This document shows positions 56,165-63,864 of a stretch of DNA of 64,000 nt, one piece after another. The notes under the pieces are model-generated. The model was given only the letters and a program-made list of their open reading frames with translations, had not been told where the DNA came from and made no database searches. A program made the position numbers and the translations under genes. Where the stretch lies: assembly GCF_000737325.1 (NCBI RefSeq), contig NZ_CP011125.1, forward strand, positions 806,001-870,000. The letters are read 5' to 3'. The DNA is from Sandaracinus amylolyticus. Lineage in GTDB: Bacteria; Myxococcota_A; Polyangia; Polyangiales; Sandaracinaceae. Numbering within the stretch: the stretch's first letter is position 1; each line of letters starts with the position of its first letter.

Positions 56165-57394
56165 ATGCCCATCGACGTCGTCTTCCTCGAGCCGTGCTTC
56201 CCCGCCAATCAGCGTGAATTCGTGCGCGCCCTGCATGCCGTCGGGGCGCGCGTCACGGGGATCGGAGAGAGGCCCAAAGAAGCGCTCGACGAATCGCTGC
56301 GACACTGGCTCTTCCACTACGAGCAGGTCGGCAACGTCACCGACGTCGCGCAGGTCGAGAAGGCCGTGCGATGGATCCAACAGAAGGTGCGTGTCGATCG
56401 GCTCGAGGCGGTCGTCGAAGCGCACGTGATGTGCGCGGCGCAGGTGCGCGAGGCGTGCGGCATCCCGGGCACGTCGGTGCGCACCACGTTCCTGTGCCGC
56501 GACAAGCCGTCGATGAAGGAGATCGCGCGCCAGCACGGCATCCCGACGGCGCAGTCGCTCGGCACGAACGATCCCGACGCGGTGCGCGCGTTCGCGGCGA
56601 AGGTCGGATATCCGCTGATCGTCAAGCCGCGCGACGGAGCGGGCGCGTCGGGGACGATGCGAGTCGACTCCGATGCAGAGCTCGAGAGTGCCATTCGCGA
56701 ATATCGGCTCGGGCGCGGTGGCAGCGCGGCAGTCGAGGAATTCATCGAGGGGCACGAGGGCTTCTACGACACGATCACGATCGGTGGTCGCGTCGTGCAC
56801 GAATTCGTCTGTCACTATTATCCGAACGTCCTCGAGGCGATGAGGACGCGCTGGATCAGCCCGCAGTTCGTCTGCACGAATCGCATCGACTCCGCGGCGG
56901 CGTACGAGGAGCTCCGAGCGCTCGGACGCAAGGTGATCAGCGCGCTCGACATCGAGACGTCGGCGACGCACATGGAGTGGTTCTTCGGCCCGAAGGGCCT
57001 GAAATTCAGCGAGATCGGCTGTCGCCCGCCGGGCGTGCGCGCCTGGGATCTCTACGCGGCGGCGAACGACTTCGACATCTATCGCGAGTGGGCGCACGCG
57101 GTCGTGCACGGTCGACCGTCGCAGTCGCTCTCGCGCCGGTTCAGCGCGGGCATCATCGCGCTGCGGCCCGATCGCGACGGAGTGATCTCGCACTACGACG
57201 GTGTGGAGGAGATCCAGCGTCGATATGGAGAGTGGGTGATCGATGCGCACCTGCCGCCGCCCGGGACTCCGACGCAGCCGGTCGAGGCGGGATACATGGC
57301 GAACGCGTGGGTGCGCATGAAGCACCCGGACTACGACGAGCTGCGCCGCATGCTCGACGCGGTCGGACAGACCGTGAAGGTGCGCGCGCGCTGA
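56165..57394 (+). CDS. ATP-grasp enzyme (paralogue C)
   Basis: 409 residues. FLEPCFPANQREFVRALHAVGARVTGIGERPKEALD parallels the start of paralogue A (39546). The core has CRDKPSMKEIARQHGIPTA, YPLIVKPRDGAGASGTMRV, VEEFIEGHEGFYDTITIGG and THMEWFFGPKGLKFSEIGCRPPG. The acidic metal ligands and ATP lysine of the fold are therefore present. The reaction is probably ATP-dependent ligation of a carboxylate; the substrate is unknown. Located 147 bp upstream of the giant adhesin-OmpA gene on the same strand, possibly sharing regulation. Confidence 0.84.
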   Translation: MPIDVVFLEPCFPANQREFVRALHAVGARVTGIGERPKEALDESLRHWLFHYEQVGNVTDVAQVEKAVRWIQQKVRVDRLEAVVEAHVMCAAQVREACGIPGTSVRTTFLCRDKPSMKEIARQHGIPTAQSLGTNDPDAVRAFAAKVGYPLIVKPRDGAGASGTMRVDSDAELESAIREYRLGRGGSAAVEEFIEGHEGFYDTITIGGRVVHEFVCHYYPNVLEAMRTRWISPQFVCTNRIDSAAAYEELRALGRKVISALDIETSATHMEWFFGPKGLKFSEIGCRPPGVRAWDLYAAANDFDIYREWAHAVVHGRPSQSLSRRFSAGIIALRPDRDGVISHYDGVEEIQRRYGEWVIDAHLPPPGTPTQPVEAGYMANAWVRMKHPDYDELRRMLDAVGQTVKVRAR

Positions 57395-57540: not shown

Positions 57541-60500
57541 ATGTCGGAGCGCTCGCTGGTCGTCGGATCCCTGGCTTCGTTGCTCGTCGTCCTCTCGCTC
57601 CCAGCTCCCACGGCGTCCGCGCAGACACGGGCCGCCACGCTGCGCACGCGCTTCGATCAGCCCGGCGACATCACGTTCGCCGCGAACTCGATCATGACGT
57701 GCCGCGCGGGCACCGGCGGCAGCGGCGCGAACCTCTGCGAGACGGCGCGCGCGAGCGCCTCGAGCACCCGCGACGACAACGACTACGCGATGGTCCCGAT
57801 CGACGCCGACAACGGCGTCCTTCCCGCGGCGGAAGCGTCGACGACGTTCGACTCCAGCTCGTCGGATCTCGTCATCGCGCCGACCGCCACCGTCTCGTGG
57901 GCGGGCCTCTACTGGCAGTGCGTCTCGAGCGGCAACAGCTCGACGCCCGCGCCCGACGCGACGCGCCGCAACCGCGTGCTCTTCCGCGCGCCCGGGGGCA
58001 GCTACACGGAGGTGACGGCGACCGTCCTCGACGCGATCGTCGACAACGGCGCCAACCTCTTCCAGGGCTTCGCGGACGTGACCGCCACCGTGCAGAGCGC
58101 GGGCGCGGGCACCTACTGGACCGGCAACATCCAGTGCGACAGCGGAGCGACGAACCACTACGGCGGCTGGACGCTCGTGGTCGTCTACCGCGACGAGACC
58201 GAGCCGCTGCGCGACCTCGTGGTCTACGACGCGTGGCGCACCTACAACGCGACCCAGATCGACATCGACGTCACGGGCTTCGTCACGCCGCCGAGCGGCT
58301 CCGTCAACTCGCGCGTCGGTGTCGTGTTCTACGACGGCGATCGCGGATCGACCGACACGCTGCGGCTGATCTCGGGCACGCGGAACACGCTGCTCGGCGG
58401 CGGCACCGTCAACCCCAACGACAACATCGGCAACAGCACGATCACGCGCTTCGGCGCGAACGTCACGACGCGCACGCCGGCGTACGTGAACACGCTCGGG
58501 TACGACGCGGACCTGATCGCGACGGTCGATGCGCTCCCGAACGGCGCGACGAGCGCGCGCATCCGCGGGCAGACGAGCGGCGAGTTCATCGCGCTCGGCG
58601 TGGTCACGTTCGCGACCGACATCTACGCGCCGGAGATCGACCTCGCGAAGACGGCGGTCGACGTGAACGGCGGACAGCTCGTTCCGGGCGACGTGCTCGA
58701 GTACACGATCAGCGGCGTCAACAGCGGGCAGGACCCGGCGATCGGCGTCGTGGTCCGCGACGCGATCCCCGCCGGGACGACGTACGTGGCGGGCTCGCTG
58801 CGGGTCGACGGTGCGGCCGTGACCGACTCGCCGGGTGACGATCGCGGCGAGTACGAGGTCGCGAACGCGCGCATCGTCGCGCGCGTCGGCACGGGCGCGA
58901 ACGCGGCGATGGGCGGGCGCATGAACCCGAGCGACACGACGACGATCGTGTTCCGCGTACGGCTCGCGCCCGCGATCCCCGGCGGCACGCGCATCACGAA
59001 CGTCGCGACCGCGACGTACAGCGGCCTGACGCTCGGCACCGGCACGACGTTCACCGGCTCGTCGGACGGAGACAGCGGCACGCCCGGCAACCAGCCGACC
59101 GAAACGCCCGTGGGCGCGATCTGCGGCGACACCGTGATCACCTCGCCCGAGACGTGCGACGACGGCGCGACGGCGAACGGCGACGGATGCAGCGCGTTCT
59201 GTCGCATCGAGGTGCGCGTCGTCTCGCCCGACGGCACCACCACGAGCAGCACGACGCCGCCGATCAGCGGCACCGCGGATCCCAGCGCGACCGTCGTGGT
59301 CGCGATCGACGGCGCCGCGGTCGGCACCGTGACCGCGAACGCCGCGGGTGCGTGGACGTTCACGCCGGCGACGCCGCTCGCGGCGGGGGCGCACACGATC
59401 GTCGCGACCGCGACCGACACGGGCGCGCACGTCACGACCGACACCGCGACGGTCACGATCGACACCGGCACCACCGTCGCGATCACCACGCCGGCCGAGG
59501 GCTCGGCGACGTCGGATCGCACGCCGGCGATCAGCGGCACCGGCGAGCCCGGCGCGACCGTGGTGGTGCGCGTCGACGGCAACGTCGTCGGTACGGTGAC
59601 GGTGAGCGCAGGCGGCACGTGGACCGTGACCGTCGGAAGCAACCTCGCAGAGGGCGCGCACACCGTGACCGCGAGCGCGACCGACGCGGTCGGTCACACC
59701 GCGACCGACAGCAACACGTTCCGCGTCGACACCGCGACGAGCGTGGCGATCACCGAGCCCGCCGAGGGCGCGACGACGAGCGACACGACGCCGACGATCC
59801 GCGGCACGGCCGAGCCCGGCGCGACGGTCGTCGTGAGCATCGACGGAACGACGATCGGGACGGTCGTCGCGTCCGCGGGCGGCACGTTCGAGGTCACCCC
59901 GACGACGCCGCTCGCCGACGGTGCGCACACCGCCACGGCGCGCGCGACCGACGCGGCGGGGAACGTCGCGACCGACACGTCGAGCTTCACCGTCGACTCC
60001 ACCACGTTCGTGTCGATCACGGCGCCGGAGGAGGGCGACACGATCGCGAGCGCGACGCCGACGATCACGGGCACCGCGGAGCCCGGCGCGTCCGTCGAGG
60101 TGACGATCGACGGAACCGTGCTCGGCAGCGTCACCGCGGATGCGAGCGGCGCGTGGTCGATCGTGGTGCCGAGCGCGCTGGCGCAGGGCCCGCACACCGT
60201 CGTGGCCGACGCGCTGCACGGCGGCGCGACCGCGAGCGCGTCGGCGACGTTCACCGTGGACAGCACGACCACGGTCGAGCTCCAGCAGCCGACCGAGGGC
60301 GAGATCGTGGGCACCGCGACGCCGACGATCACCGGCACCGCGGAGCCCGGTGCGTCGATCGCGATCACGATCGACGGCGCTGCGGTGGGCACGGTCACCG
60401 CCGACGCGGAGGGCAACTGGACGTTCGTGCCGAGCACGCCGCTCGGCGAAGGCACGCACGACGTCGACGTCGTCGCGACCGACGGCATCGGGAACACCGC

Positions 60501-63500
60501 GACCGACGATGGCTCGTTCGTGGTCGACACGTCGCTGCCGTCGCTCGAGATCGTGAGCCCCGGCGACGAGACCAGCACCGCGAGCACCACGCCGACGATC
60601 ACCGGCACCTCGGAGCCGGGGCTCGTCGTGACCGTGAGCATCGACGGCGCGCTGCTCGGCTCGGTGACGACCGACGCGTCGGGCGCGTGGTCGATCCCGG
60701 TGACCACGCCGCTCGCCGAGGGCCCGCACGAGGTCGTCGCGACGACCACCGACGCGGCCGGCCACGCCGCGACCGACGAGAACCAGTTCACCGTCGACAC
60801 CGGCGCGCCGACCGTGACGATCACGTCGCCGGCGCACGGCGCGCGGGTCCCGACCGACGCGCCGACGATCACCGGCACGGCGGATCCCGGTGCGACCGTG
60901 GAGGTGTTCGTCGATGGCGCGCTCGTCGCGACCGTGACCGCCGACGCGAGCGGCGCGTGGAGCACCACCGCGGGCCCGCTCGCGGACGGCTCGCACGAGG
61001 TGCGCGCGGTCGCGCGTGACGACGCGGGCAACACGGCGACCGCGACCTCCGGCTTCGTCGTCGACACCTCGACCGAGGTGGCGATCACGTCGCCGGCCGA
61101 CGGCGGCGCGGTCGGCAGCGCGACGCCGACCATCACCGGCACCGCGGAGCCCGGCGCGAGCGTCGAGGTGCGCGCCGACGGCACGGTGATCGGCACCGTC
61201 GTCGCGGGCGCGGACGGCACGTGGTCGATCGCGATCACGACGCCGCTCGCGGCCGGCGATCACACCATCGATGCGCACGCGACCGACTCGGTCGGCAACA
61301 CCGCCGACGCGACGAGCGACTTCGAGTACGACCCGTCGTCGCTCGACACCGACGGCGACGGCCTCAGCGATGCCGACGAGTGTCCCGACGCGCCGTGCCG
61401 CGACAGCGACGGCGACGGCGATCCCGACTACGACGACGCGGACGACGACGATGACGGCGTCCCGACGAGCGTCGAGTGCACGACCGCGCCGTGCGCGGAC
61501 ACCGACGGCGACGGAACCAGCGATCACCTCGACACCGACGACGACGGCGACGGCGTCCCGACGCGCGACGAGGCGCCCGGCGGCGTGACGCGCGACACCG
61601 ATCTCGACGAACGTCCGGATCACCTCGATCCCGACGACGACGGCGACGGGCTCCCCACGAGCGACGAGTGCGGCACCGCGCCGTGCCGCGACAGCGACGG
61701 AGACGGAGACGCGGACTTCGTCGATCCCGACGACGACGACGACGGCATCCCGACCTCCCGCGAGCGCGCGGACGGCGACACGCACGGCGACGACGTCGAC
61801 GGCGACGATCGCCCGAACTGGCTCGACACCGATGCCGACGGCGACGGCCGACTCGACGGCGACGAGGGCCTCGGTGACGAGGACGGCGACGGCACGCCGA
61901 ACTACCTCGATCCGTTCGTCCCTGCGCCCGACGCGGGCGCGAACGACGGTGACGCGGGCACCGGCGGCGACGCGGGCGTGACCGGCGGCGGTCTCGCGGG
62001 CGGCGCGTGCCACTGCTCGACGCCGGGCGCGATGGGCGCGCGCGGAAACGTCGGTCTCGCCATCGCCGGGCTGCTCGGTCTCGCGCTGCTGCTCCGGCGT
62101 CGTCGCGGGGTGATCGCGGCGGTCGGCGTGGGCGCGGCGCTCGCGTCGACGACGACCGCGCACGCGCAGTCGCAGGGCTTCACGCTCGACCCGTTTCGCG
62201 CCGCGGAGACGCCGAACGACGGGTTCGCGGTGTCGGGCGTGCGGGGGCTCGGTCACCTCGACTTCGGCGCGCGCCTGGTGCTCGACTACGGGCTCGATCC
62301 GCTGGTGTTCGAGGAGCGTCTCGGCGACGCGTCGACGCAGACGATCTCGGTGGTCGAGCACCAGCTCGTCGGGAACCTCGCGCTCTCGCTCGGGCTCTTC
62401 GATCGCGTCGTGGTGTTCGCGGGGCTGCCCGCGACGTTCGTGAGCGAGGGGCAGGACAGCGCGCTCGGTCTCACCGCGGACGGGACGACGATCGGCGATC
62501 CGTACCTCGGCGTGCGCGTGCGGCTCTTCGGTGAGGCGAACGACGTCGCGGCGCTCGCGCTGCAGGTCGCGGGCTCGGCGCCGCTCTCCGAGGTCGCGTC
62601 GGAGGGCCAGCGTTTCGCGGGCGAGCGCGGCTTCGTGTTCCTTCCGCGCATCGCGCTCGAGGTGCGCCCGCACGAGCGCGTGCGCTTCGCCGTCAACGTC
62701 GGCGCGCGGCTGCGCGAGCCCTCGCGCATCGTGAACCTGGAGGTCTCGCACGAGCTCACGTACGGCGTCGGCGCGACGGTGGTCGCGCTGCCGGGCGTGC
62801 TCGATCTCGTCGCGGAGCTCTACGGCTCGACGGGGTTCGAGACGTTCTTCGAGCGCGAGTCGTCGCCGCTCGAGGCGATCGGCGGCGTGCGCGTGCATCC
62901 GGTCTGCGGCTTCAACGTCGGTCTCGCGGGCGGCGCGGGGCTCACGCGCGGCTACGGCGCCGCGGCGTTTCGCGGCGTGCTCGAGCTGAGCTACGCGTAC
63001 GAGGCGCGCTGCCGCGAGCAGCCCGCCGCCGCCGAGCCCCTCGCGCCGCCGCCGCCGAGCGACACCGATCACGACGGCCTGCTCGACGACGCCGACCAGT
63101 GCCCGAACGAGCCCGAGGACGCCGACTCGTGGCAGGACGAGGACGGCTGTCCCGATCTCGACAACGACGCGGACGGCGTCCTCGACACGAGCGACGGCGC
63201 ACCGAACGAGCCCGAGGATCGCGACGGCTTCCAGGACGAAGACGGCGTGCCCGAGCTCGACAACGACGCGGACGGCGTCCCCGACGCGAGCGACGGCGCG
63301 CCGAACGAGCCCGAGGATCGCGACGGCTTCCAGGACGCCGACGGCGTGCCCGAGCCCGACAACGATCGCGACACGCTCCTCGACCCCGAGGACGAGTGCC
63401 CGACCGCGCCGGGCCGCGTCGAGGATCGCGGCTGCCCTCGCGCCGTGCGCCTCGACGAGGCGAGCGGGACGATCGTCATCCTCCAGCGCGTCGAGTTCGC

Positions 63501-63864
63501 GACGAACCGCGACACGATCCTCGAGCGCAGCTTCCCGATCCTCGAGGAGGTGCGCGCGGTGCTCGACGCGAACCCGCAGCTCCGCCGCGTGCGCATCGAA
63601 GGGCACACCGACGATCGCGGGCGCGACGATCGCAACCTCGATCTCTCGATGCGCCGCGCGGGCAGCGTGATGCGCTGGCTCGTCGAGCACGGCATCGACG
63701 CGACGCGCCTCGAGGGCGCGGGCTGCGGCGAGCTGCACCCGATGGACTCGAACCGCACGCAGGCCGGGCGTCAGCTGAACCGACGCGTCGAGTTCCTGAT
63801 CGTCGATCCGCCTTCGCCGACCGCGCGCGCGGCGCGCGAAGGGTGCGTGTCGGTCACCGACTGA
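57541..63864 (+). CDS. Giant adhesin with Ig-like repeats, internal MYXO-CTERM-like signal and fused OmpA-type protein
   Basis: 2107 residues from ATG 57541 (GGAGG upstream). Order: signal peptide (1-27); unassigned beta region (28-360); DUF11-like domain (365-520); Cys motif ETCDDGATANGDGCSAFC (528-556); eight ~88-residue bacterial Ig-like repeats (557-1268), each with TPTITGTAEPGA-type start; Asp-rich TSP3-like calcium repeats (1269-1460); then CHC at 1490-1492, a hydrophobic helix and RRRR (1519-1522), the MYXO-CTERM layout. Without a stop it continues VIAAVGVGAALAS...AHA-QS, like a second signal peptide (to 1542), then a beta-barrel (~1543-1830), more TSP3 repeats (1841-1965) and an OmpA peptidoglycan-binding domain with IEGHTDDRG (~1973-2090). 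Cleavage into two mature proteins is my inference. Confidence 0.85.
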   Translation: MSERSLVVGSLASLLVVLSLPAPTASAQTRAATLRTRFDQPGDITFAANSIMTCRAGTGGSGANLCETARASASSTRDDNDYAMVPIDADNGVLPAAEASTTFDSSSSDLVIAPTATVSWAGLYWQCVSSGNSSTPAPDATRRNRVLFRAPGGSYTEVTATVLDAIVDNGANLFQGFADVTATVQSAGAGTYWTGNIQCDSGATNHYGGWTLVVVYRDETEPLRDLVVYDAWRTYNATQIDIDVTGFVTPPSGSVNSRVGVVFYDGDRGSTDTLRLISGTRNTLLGGGTVNPNDNIGNSTITRFGANVTTRTPAYVNTLGYDADLIATVDALPNGATSARIRGQTSGEFIALGVVTFATDIYAPEIDLAKTAVDVNGGQLVPGDVLEYTISGVNSGQDPAIGVVVRDAIPAGTTYVAGSLRVDGAAVTDSPGDDRGEYEVANARIVARVGTGANAAMGGRMNPSDTTTIVFRVRLAPAIPGGTRITNVATATYSGLTLGTGTTFTGSSDGDSGTPGNQPTETPVGAICGDTVITSPETCDDGATANGDGCSAFCRIEVRVVSPDGTTTSSTTPPISGTADPSATVVVAIDGAAVGTVTANAAGAWTFTPATPLAAGAHTIVATATDTGAHVTTDTATVTIDTGTTVAITTPAEGSATSDRTPAISGTGEPGATVVVRVDGNVVGTVTVSAGGTWTVTVGSNLAEGAHTVTASATDAVGHTATDSNTFRVDTATSVAITEPAEGATTSDTTPTIRGTAEPGATVVVSIDGTTIGTVVASAGGTFEVTPTTPLADGAHTATARATDAAGNVATDTSSFTVDSTTFVSITAPEEGDTIASATPTITGTAEPGASVEVTIDGTVLGSVTADASGAWSIVVPSALAQGPHTVVADALHGGATASASATFTVDSTTTVELQQPTEGEIVGTATPTITGTAEPGASIAITIDGAAVGTVTADAEGNWTFVPSTPLGEGTHDVDVVATDGIGNTATDDGSFVVDTSLPSLEIVSPGDETSTASTTPTITGTSEPGLVVTVSIDGALLGSVTTDASGAWSIPVTTPLAEGPHEVVATTTDAAGHAATDENQFTVDTGAPTVTITSPAHGARVPTDAPTITGTADPGATVEVFVDGALVATVTADASGAWSTTAGPLADGSHEVRAVARDDAGNTATATSGFVVDTSTEVAITSPADGGAVGSATPTITGTAEPGASVEVRADGTVIGTVVAGADGTWSIAITTPLAAGDHTIDAHATDSVGNTADATSDFEYDPSSLDTDGDGLSDADECPDAPCRDSDGDGDPDYDDADDDDDGVPTSVECTTAPCADTDGDGTSDHLDTDDDGDGVPTRDEAPGGVTRDTDLDERPDHLDPDDDGDGLPTSDECGTAPCRDSDGDGDADFVDPDDDDDGIPTSRERADGDTHGDDVDGDDRPNWLDTDADGDGRLDGDEGLGDEDGDGTPNYLDPFVPAPDAGANDGDAGTGGDAGVTGGGLAGGACHCSTPGAMGARGNVGLAIAGLLGLALLLRRRRGVIAAVGVGAALASTTTAHAQSQGFTLDPFRAAETPNDGFAVSGVRGLGHLDFGARLVLDYGLDPLVFEERLGDASTQTISVVEHQLVGNLALSLGLFDRVVVFAGLPATFVSEGQDSALGLTADGTTIGDPYLGVRVRLFGEANDVAALALQVAGSAPLSEVASEGQRFAGERGFVFLPRIALEVRPHERVRFAVNVGARLREPSRIVNLEVSHELTYGVGATVVALPGVLDLVAELYGSTGFETFFERESSPLEAIGGVRVHPVCGFNVGLAGGAGLTRGYGAAAFRGVLELSYAYEARCREQPAAAEPLAPPPPSDTDHDGLLDDADQCPNEPEDADSWQDEDGCPDLDNDADGVLDTSDGAPNEPEDRDGFQDEDGVPELDNDADGVPDASDGAPNEPEDRDGFQDADGVPEPDNDRDTLLDPEDECPTAPGRVEDRGCPRAVRLDEASGTIVILQRVEFATNRDTILERSFPILEEVRAVLDANPQLRRVRIEGHTDDRGRDDRNLDLSMRRAGSVMRWLVEHGIDATRLEGAGCGELHPMDSNRTQAGRQLNRRVEFLIVDPPSPTARAAREGCVSVTD

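Follow-up and report, generated by a model that had tools for sequence, protein, structure and literature searches.

The locus and its reading frame

The window analyzed here is a 64,000-nucleotide stretch of DNA from the soil myxobacterium Sandaracinus amylolyticus, which forms part of a finished, single-contig genome of 10.33 Mb. Close to its right end, one long reading frame carries the following features.

57541..63864, + strand: putative adhesin-anchor precursor, a single open frame of 2107 aa plus stop
57541..57621, + strand: first signal peptide, with a predicted cut between ASA and QT after residue 27 (motif at 57610-57627, read from the sequence)
57622..58650, + strand: N-terminal adhesin domain that belongs to no Pfam family; the AlphaFold2 model (pTM 0.83) is mostly beta
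58660..59016, + strand: DUF11-type domain, residues 374-492 (PF01345, 28.6 bits)
59203..61344, + strand: eight Ig-like repeats (Pfam Big_13, 328 bits; Ca2+-stabilised adhesin repeat NF033510)
61345..61917, + strand: Asp-rich DxDGDG calcium-type repeats, from the translation
61999..62106, + strand: internal MYXO-CTERM-like tail of GGACHCST, helix and RRRR (TIGR03901, 19.9 bits)
62095..62166, + strand: second signal peptide with RRRR as its n-region and a predicted cut between AHA and QS after residue 1542
62107..62112, + strand: GGGG run (62107-62110) and GTG (62110-62112), the only in-frame start candidate
62263..62997, + strand: 12-strand outer-membrane beta-barrel, from AlphaFold2 (FapF/COG4313-like, Z 22)
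63058..63435, + strand: TSP3-type calcium repeats between the barrel and the OmpA domain, from the translation (model residues 303-428)
63496..63783, + strand: OmpA peptidoglycan-binding domain, residues 1986-2081 (PF00691, 61.7 bits)

An earlier note on this DNA had described an uninterrupted frame, and no stop codon was found within it. The order of parts given there also agrees with the positions and the Pfam domains: a signal peptide, eight Ig-like repeats and calcium-type repeats are followed by a tail with CHC at residues 1490-1492, a helix at 1502-1518 and RRRR at 1519-1522. The second signal peptide, the barrel, the TSP3 repeats and the OmpA domain are likewise found where they had been placed, and a cut at the second site would leave 565 residues for the anchor half.

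The anchor half was modelled with AlphaFold2 using 14 homologs, which gave a 12-strand barrel and an OmpA fold, with pLDDT values mostly between 70 and 95 in the barrel block. The barrel fold is closest to that of FapF, an amyloid secretion pore, and of the COG4313 channels, and comparison with these 12-strand barrels gave Z-scores of 20.7-22.4 over 227-249 residues at 13% identity. Unlike FapF, the window's barrel displays no sign of polypeptide export. For the N-terminal adhesin domain, a Foldseek search returned no clear match, and the TM-scores were low throughout.

The gene directly upstream (56165-57394, + strand) encodes an ATP-grasp ligase whose C-terminus gives a weak L-amino-acid-ligase match. 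Downstream, a convergent gene (L001:3261-3971, - strand) has its lower end at about 63873 of the window and is cut by the window end; its product of 236 aa is predicted to be secreted and is probably beta-rich. Elsewhere in the same genome (L257, C1:6385000-6392000), a paralog of the N-terminal adhesin domain lies in a 1127-aa frame that ends in CSC...RSRRRR, and no barrel-OmpA gene was found within the 7 kb region around it.

A junction that recurs across Myxococcota

The anchor half was searched for in 57 relatives and in 331 genomes from the phylum. About 100 regions were taken, and 105 OmpA-bearing ORFs were classed. Of the 33 loci that received names, with the window's own record excluded, most belong to metagenome bins from Sandaracinaceae or from other Myxococcota, and the closest relatives of the window's genome among them are metagenome bins of Sandaracinaceae. 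A fused junction, consisting of a Cys motif, a helix, an Arg cluster and a second signal peptide, was found in 30 of the 105 ORFs, distributed over 30 genomes and 17 family-level groups. Another 20 directly follow a separate gene whose product has a MYXO-CTERM tail, and the rest display neither arrangement; because the sampling favored long frames, the numbers are counts and not frequencies. Since 29 further ORFs are arranged alike, from the Cys motif, helix and Arg cluster through the second signal peptide to the barrel and OmpA domain, chance is excluded as the origin of the layout. The adhesin halves of the fused ORFs are very diverse and include Ig-like, DUF4215 and FG-GAP domains, as well as TSP3 with DUF3344.

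The Cys motif, helix and Arg cluster served as selection criteria for the fused ORFs and consequently do not provide independent evidence for cutting. The signal-peptidase-like pattern [AVSG]xA[QED] was not used for the selection. It occurs after the second hydrophobic stretch in 26 of the 30 fused ORFs, compared with a mean of 9.8 in shuffled sequences (sd 2.4, maximum 18 among 2000 shuffles). Only a short loop, with a median of 6-7 residues, separates the two hydrophobic stretches, so in most of these proteins a single Arg cluster would close the MYXO-CTERM on its cytoplasmic side and at the same time form the n-region of the second signal peptide.

The MYXO-CTERM model TIGR03901 scores the window's junction 0.1 bit below its curated cut-off of 20. 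The fused relatives that match it score between 14.6 and 24.5 bits, with 2 of the 10 junctions scored lying above the cut-off. All three elements of the motif, namely the Cys motif, the hydrophobic helix and the Arg cluster, are present in the window's protein; unlike in the unfused relatives, the tail is not at the extreme C-terminus, and 585 residues follow the RRRR.

The start codons at the junction bear on whether the second half could be made separately. In 21 of the 30 fused ORFs, the junction loop contains no ATG, GTG or TTG, which means that these proteins have to be produced as one chain and that their second half cannot arise alone. An ATG with a charged n-region was found at none of the 30 fused junctions, compared with 59 of the 71 unfused genes. 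The window's frame does have a GTG right at the junction, from which the anchor might additionally be made in part on its own, so that one frame would give two products. This GTG, however, has neither a charged n-region nor a Shine-Dalgarno sequence, and an internal start is rejected for the 21 ORFs whose loop lacks a start codon. For these reasons, such a second product is regarded as highly improbable, and the window's protein appears, from its sequence, to be made as one chain with no usable internal start.

The fused reading of the window's gene depends on the GGGG run. If it contained one G fewer, through a base-call error or a very recent frameshift, the first frame would end ...RRRRG-TGA, with the TGA overlapping the GTG, and the locus would really consist of two genes whose stop and start overlap in GTGA at 62110. 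The traA and traB genes of M. xanthus overlap by four bases (PMC3325183), and the nearest relatives of the window's gene are split. However, the second protein would then begin with a signal peptide free of K/R and without a Shine-Dalgarno sequence, whereas in 67 of the 71 unfused homologs a start is followed by an n-region with one or more K/R; in addition, the genome is finished as one contig. A stop codon lost by sequencing error, which the earlier note had considered, is possible for this junction, but it leaves the 29 other fused junctions, mostly without any start codon in the loop, unexplained. As a general explanation it is ruled out by them, and for the window itself it is considered unlikely.

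Fused forms, split forms and proposed processing

The earlier note had proposed looking for relatives in which the two halves are separate genes, and such split neighboring genes were indeed found. On a tree of 102 anchor halves, the fused state has to change 20 times, and well-supported branches force 11 or more of these changes. A more careful tree of 37 anchor halves gave 9 changes, at least 5 of them forced, and the window's protein clusters there with three split pairs from its own family (100/100 support). Its barrel half is nearest to the split pairs of G008 and G004 (support 99 and 100/100), and the upstream gene of one nearest split pair is 47-54% identical to the window's adhesin half over nearly the whole length. 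In another case, a fused form encoded by one gene (L078) and a split form encoded by two (L077) are 70% identical over 1571 residues, covering the whole adhesin half. Homologs of the N-terminal adhesin domain were also found in reversed order, downstream of a barrel-OmpA gene (L240/G041, L241/G051 and L249/G318). In G041, there are two such reversed pairs in tandem, and in all three genomes the adhesin bears a MYXO-CTERM-type tail at its very end. From the unfused relatives and the reversed orders, it follows that the adhesin and its barrel-OmpA partner stay together, both in fused and in unfused form and with either of the two coming first; fused and split genes are two states of one pair. 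The junction spacer of L078 (G053) contains AAAGGAGG and no start codon; this sequence is possibly a relic of a ribosome-binding site.

The earlier note had left open whether the protein is a polyprotein or a permanent fusion. In a permanent fusion, the chain would stay intact, and the adhesin repeats would be covalently tied to the wall-bound barrel. The single frame without a stop is compatible with this, and a covalent linkage would provide a very firm anchor. However, the two hydrophobic helices and the Arg loop between them would keep such a chain in the inner membrane, and the distance of only about 35 residues from AHA to the first barrel strand is probably too short for crossing the periplasm. 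The signal-peptidase site is, moreover, kept in most of the fused ORFs. A permanent fusion is disfavored because the same pair also exists as separate genes, in some cases with their order reversed, and it is judged very unlikely. The note had also treated a cytoplasmic RRRR loop within one intact protein as evidence against processing. This segment is expected to be cytoplasmic in any case, as in every MYXO-CTERM protein, so such a loop would be no argument against processing.

Good support for the polyprotein reading comes from the split relatives, from the retention of both signals in the fused forms and from the presence of a myxosortase, MrtC, in the same genome (G000:C1:3815648-3815947, 242.9 bits against a cut-off of 195). 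In M. xanthus, the MYXO-CTERM of TraA is cut by MrtX (PMC11980579). With one chain in the sequence, conserved signals, an enzyme gene and the same pair unfused elsewhere, the ORF is likely to encode a precursor that is cut into a surface adhesin of about 146 kDa and an outer-membrane anchor of about 61 kDa, a pair that would work like TraA/TraB.

The proposed processing would proceed as follows. The first signal peptide would direct the adhesin through Sec until the MYXO-CTERM helix stops the transfer. The RRRR would be kept in the cytoplasm and, as the n-region of the second signal peptide, would allow the transfer to restart. Myxosortase, in this genome MrtC, would then cut near the Cys pair and send the adhesin to the cell surface, while signal peptidase I would cut at AHA-QS and release the barrel-OmpA protein. 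The released anchor would insert into the outer membrane, bind the wall and serve as the docking site for the adhesin, a role suggested by analogy with TraAB. A leftover hairpin of roughly 50 residues would stay in the inner membrane.

Relation to MXAN_5598, TraA/TraB and other systems

The earlier note knew of no description of this layout. It is, however, already known: Guo, Haft and Wall 2025 (PMC11980579) describe MXAN_5598 of Myxococcus xanthus as a large adhesin with an internal MYXO-CTERM, a barrel and an OmpA domain. They suggest a gene fusion with processing and anchoring of the N-terminal part, liken the protein to TraA plus TraB, and present the layout as that of one atypical protein, internal MYXO-CTERM motifs being rare. 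Judged by this published description, MXAN_5598 has the same order of parts in one ORF as the window's protein. The gene adjoins ftsA/ftsZ, unlike the loci found here; no FtsZ was found in any of the stretches taken, which are short. A list of vesicle proteins (PMC4158809) also contains MXAN_5598, described there as an OmpA domain protein.

The TraA/TraB pair likewise combines a MYXO-CTERM surface adhesin with a barrel-TSP3-OmpA partner. Against the TraB model NF033763, the window's barrel-OmpA half scored 246 bits in all and 160 bits for the best stretch; the cut-off is 700, and membership in TraB was rejected. No TraB above the curated cut-off was found in the same genome. Membership in TraA was rejected as well: the adhesin half has no PA14 domain or Cys-rich repeats, and Pfam and NCBIfam display only Ig-like and DUF11 domains. 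In view of the TraB score and the missing TraA domains, the window's protein would work like TraA/TraB without being a member of either family. TraA and TraB were, furthermore, overlapping separate genes in all cases examined (PMC6372800), in contrast to the one ORF found here.

Four aspects appear to be new, none of which is described in the available part of PMC11980579: the breadth of the layout, its repeated fusion and fission, the second signal peptide, which goes without mention there for MXAN_5598, and the Arg cluster common to both signals. The MYXO-CTERM helix, the shared Arg cluster and the second signal peptide together form a compact, putatively cleavable hairpin. On a slight balance of probability, this hairpin serves Myxococcota generally as a two-in-one linker that has repeatedly been used to produce equal amounts of a surface adhesin and its wall-bound barrel partner, and the one-gene and two-gene forms have replaced each other many times. 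The recurrence of the layout across the phylum and the toggling with the two-gene form support cutting as the normal fate of the fused proteins. The pairing of an adhesin with a barrel-OmpA protein is thereby marked as a partnership wider than TraA/TraB, and the fused forms offer a natural test of whether myxosortase acts on an internal tag.

A literature search on bacterial polyproteins returned nothing directly on point. In Bradyrhizobium, FbcH (cytochrome b plus c1) is a bacterial precursor that is cut at an internal signal sequence. As proposed for the window's protein, a single chain gives rise to two envelope proteins through an internal signal peptide. FbcH yields an inner-membrane cytochrome pair, whereas for the window's protein the prediction includes a sorting protease as a second enzyme; this protein would thus be a case of a bacterial polyprotein cut by two different membrane proteases.
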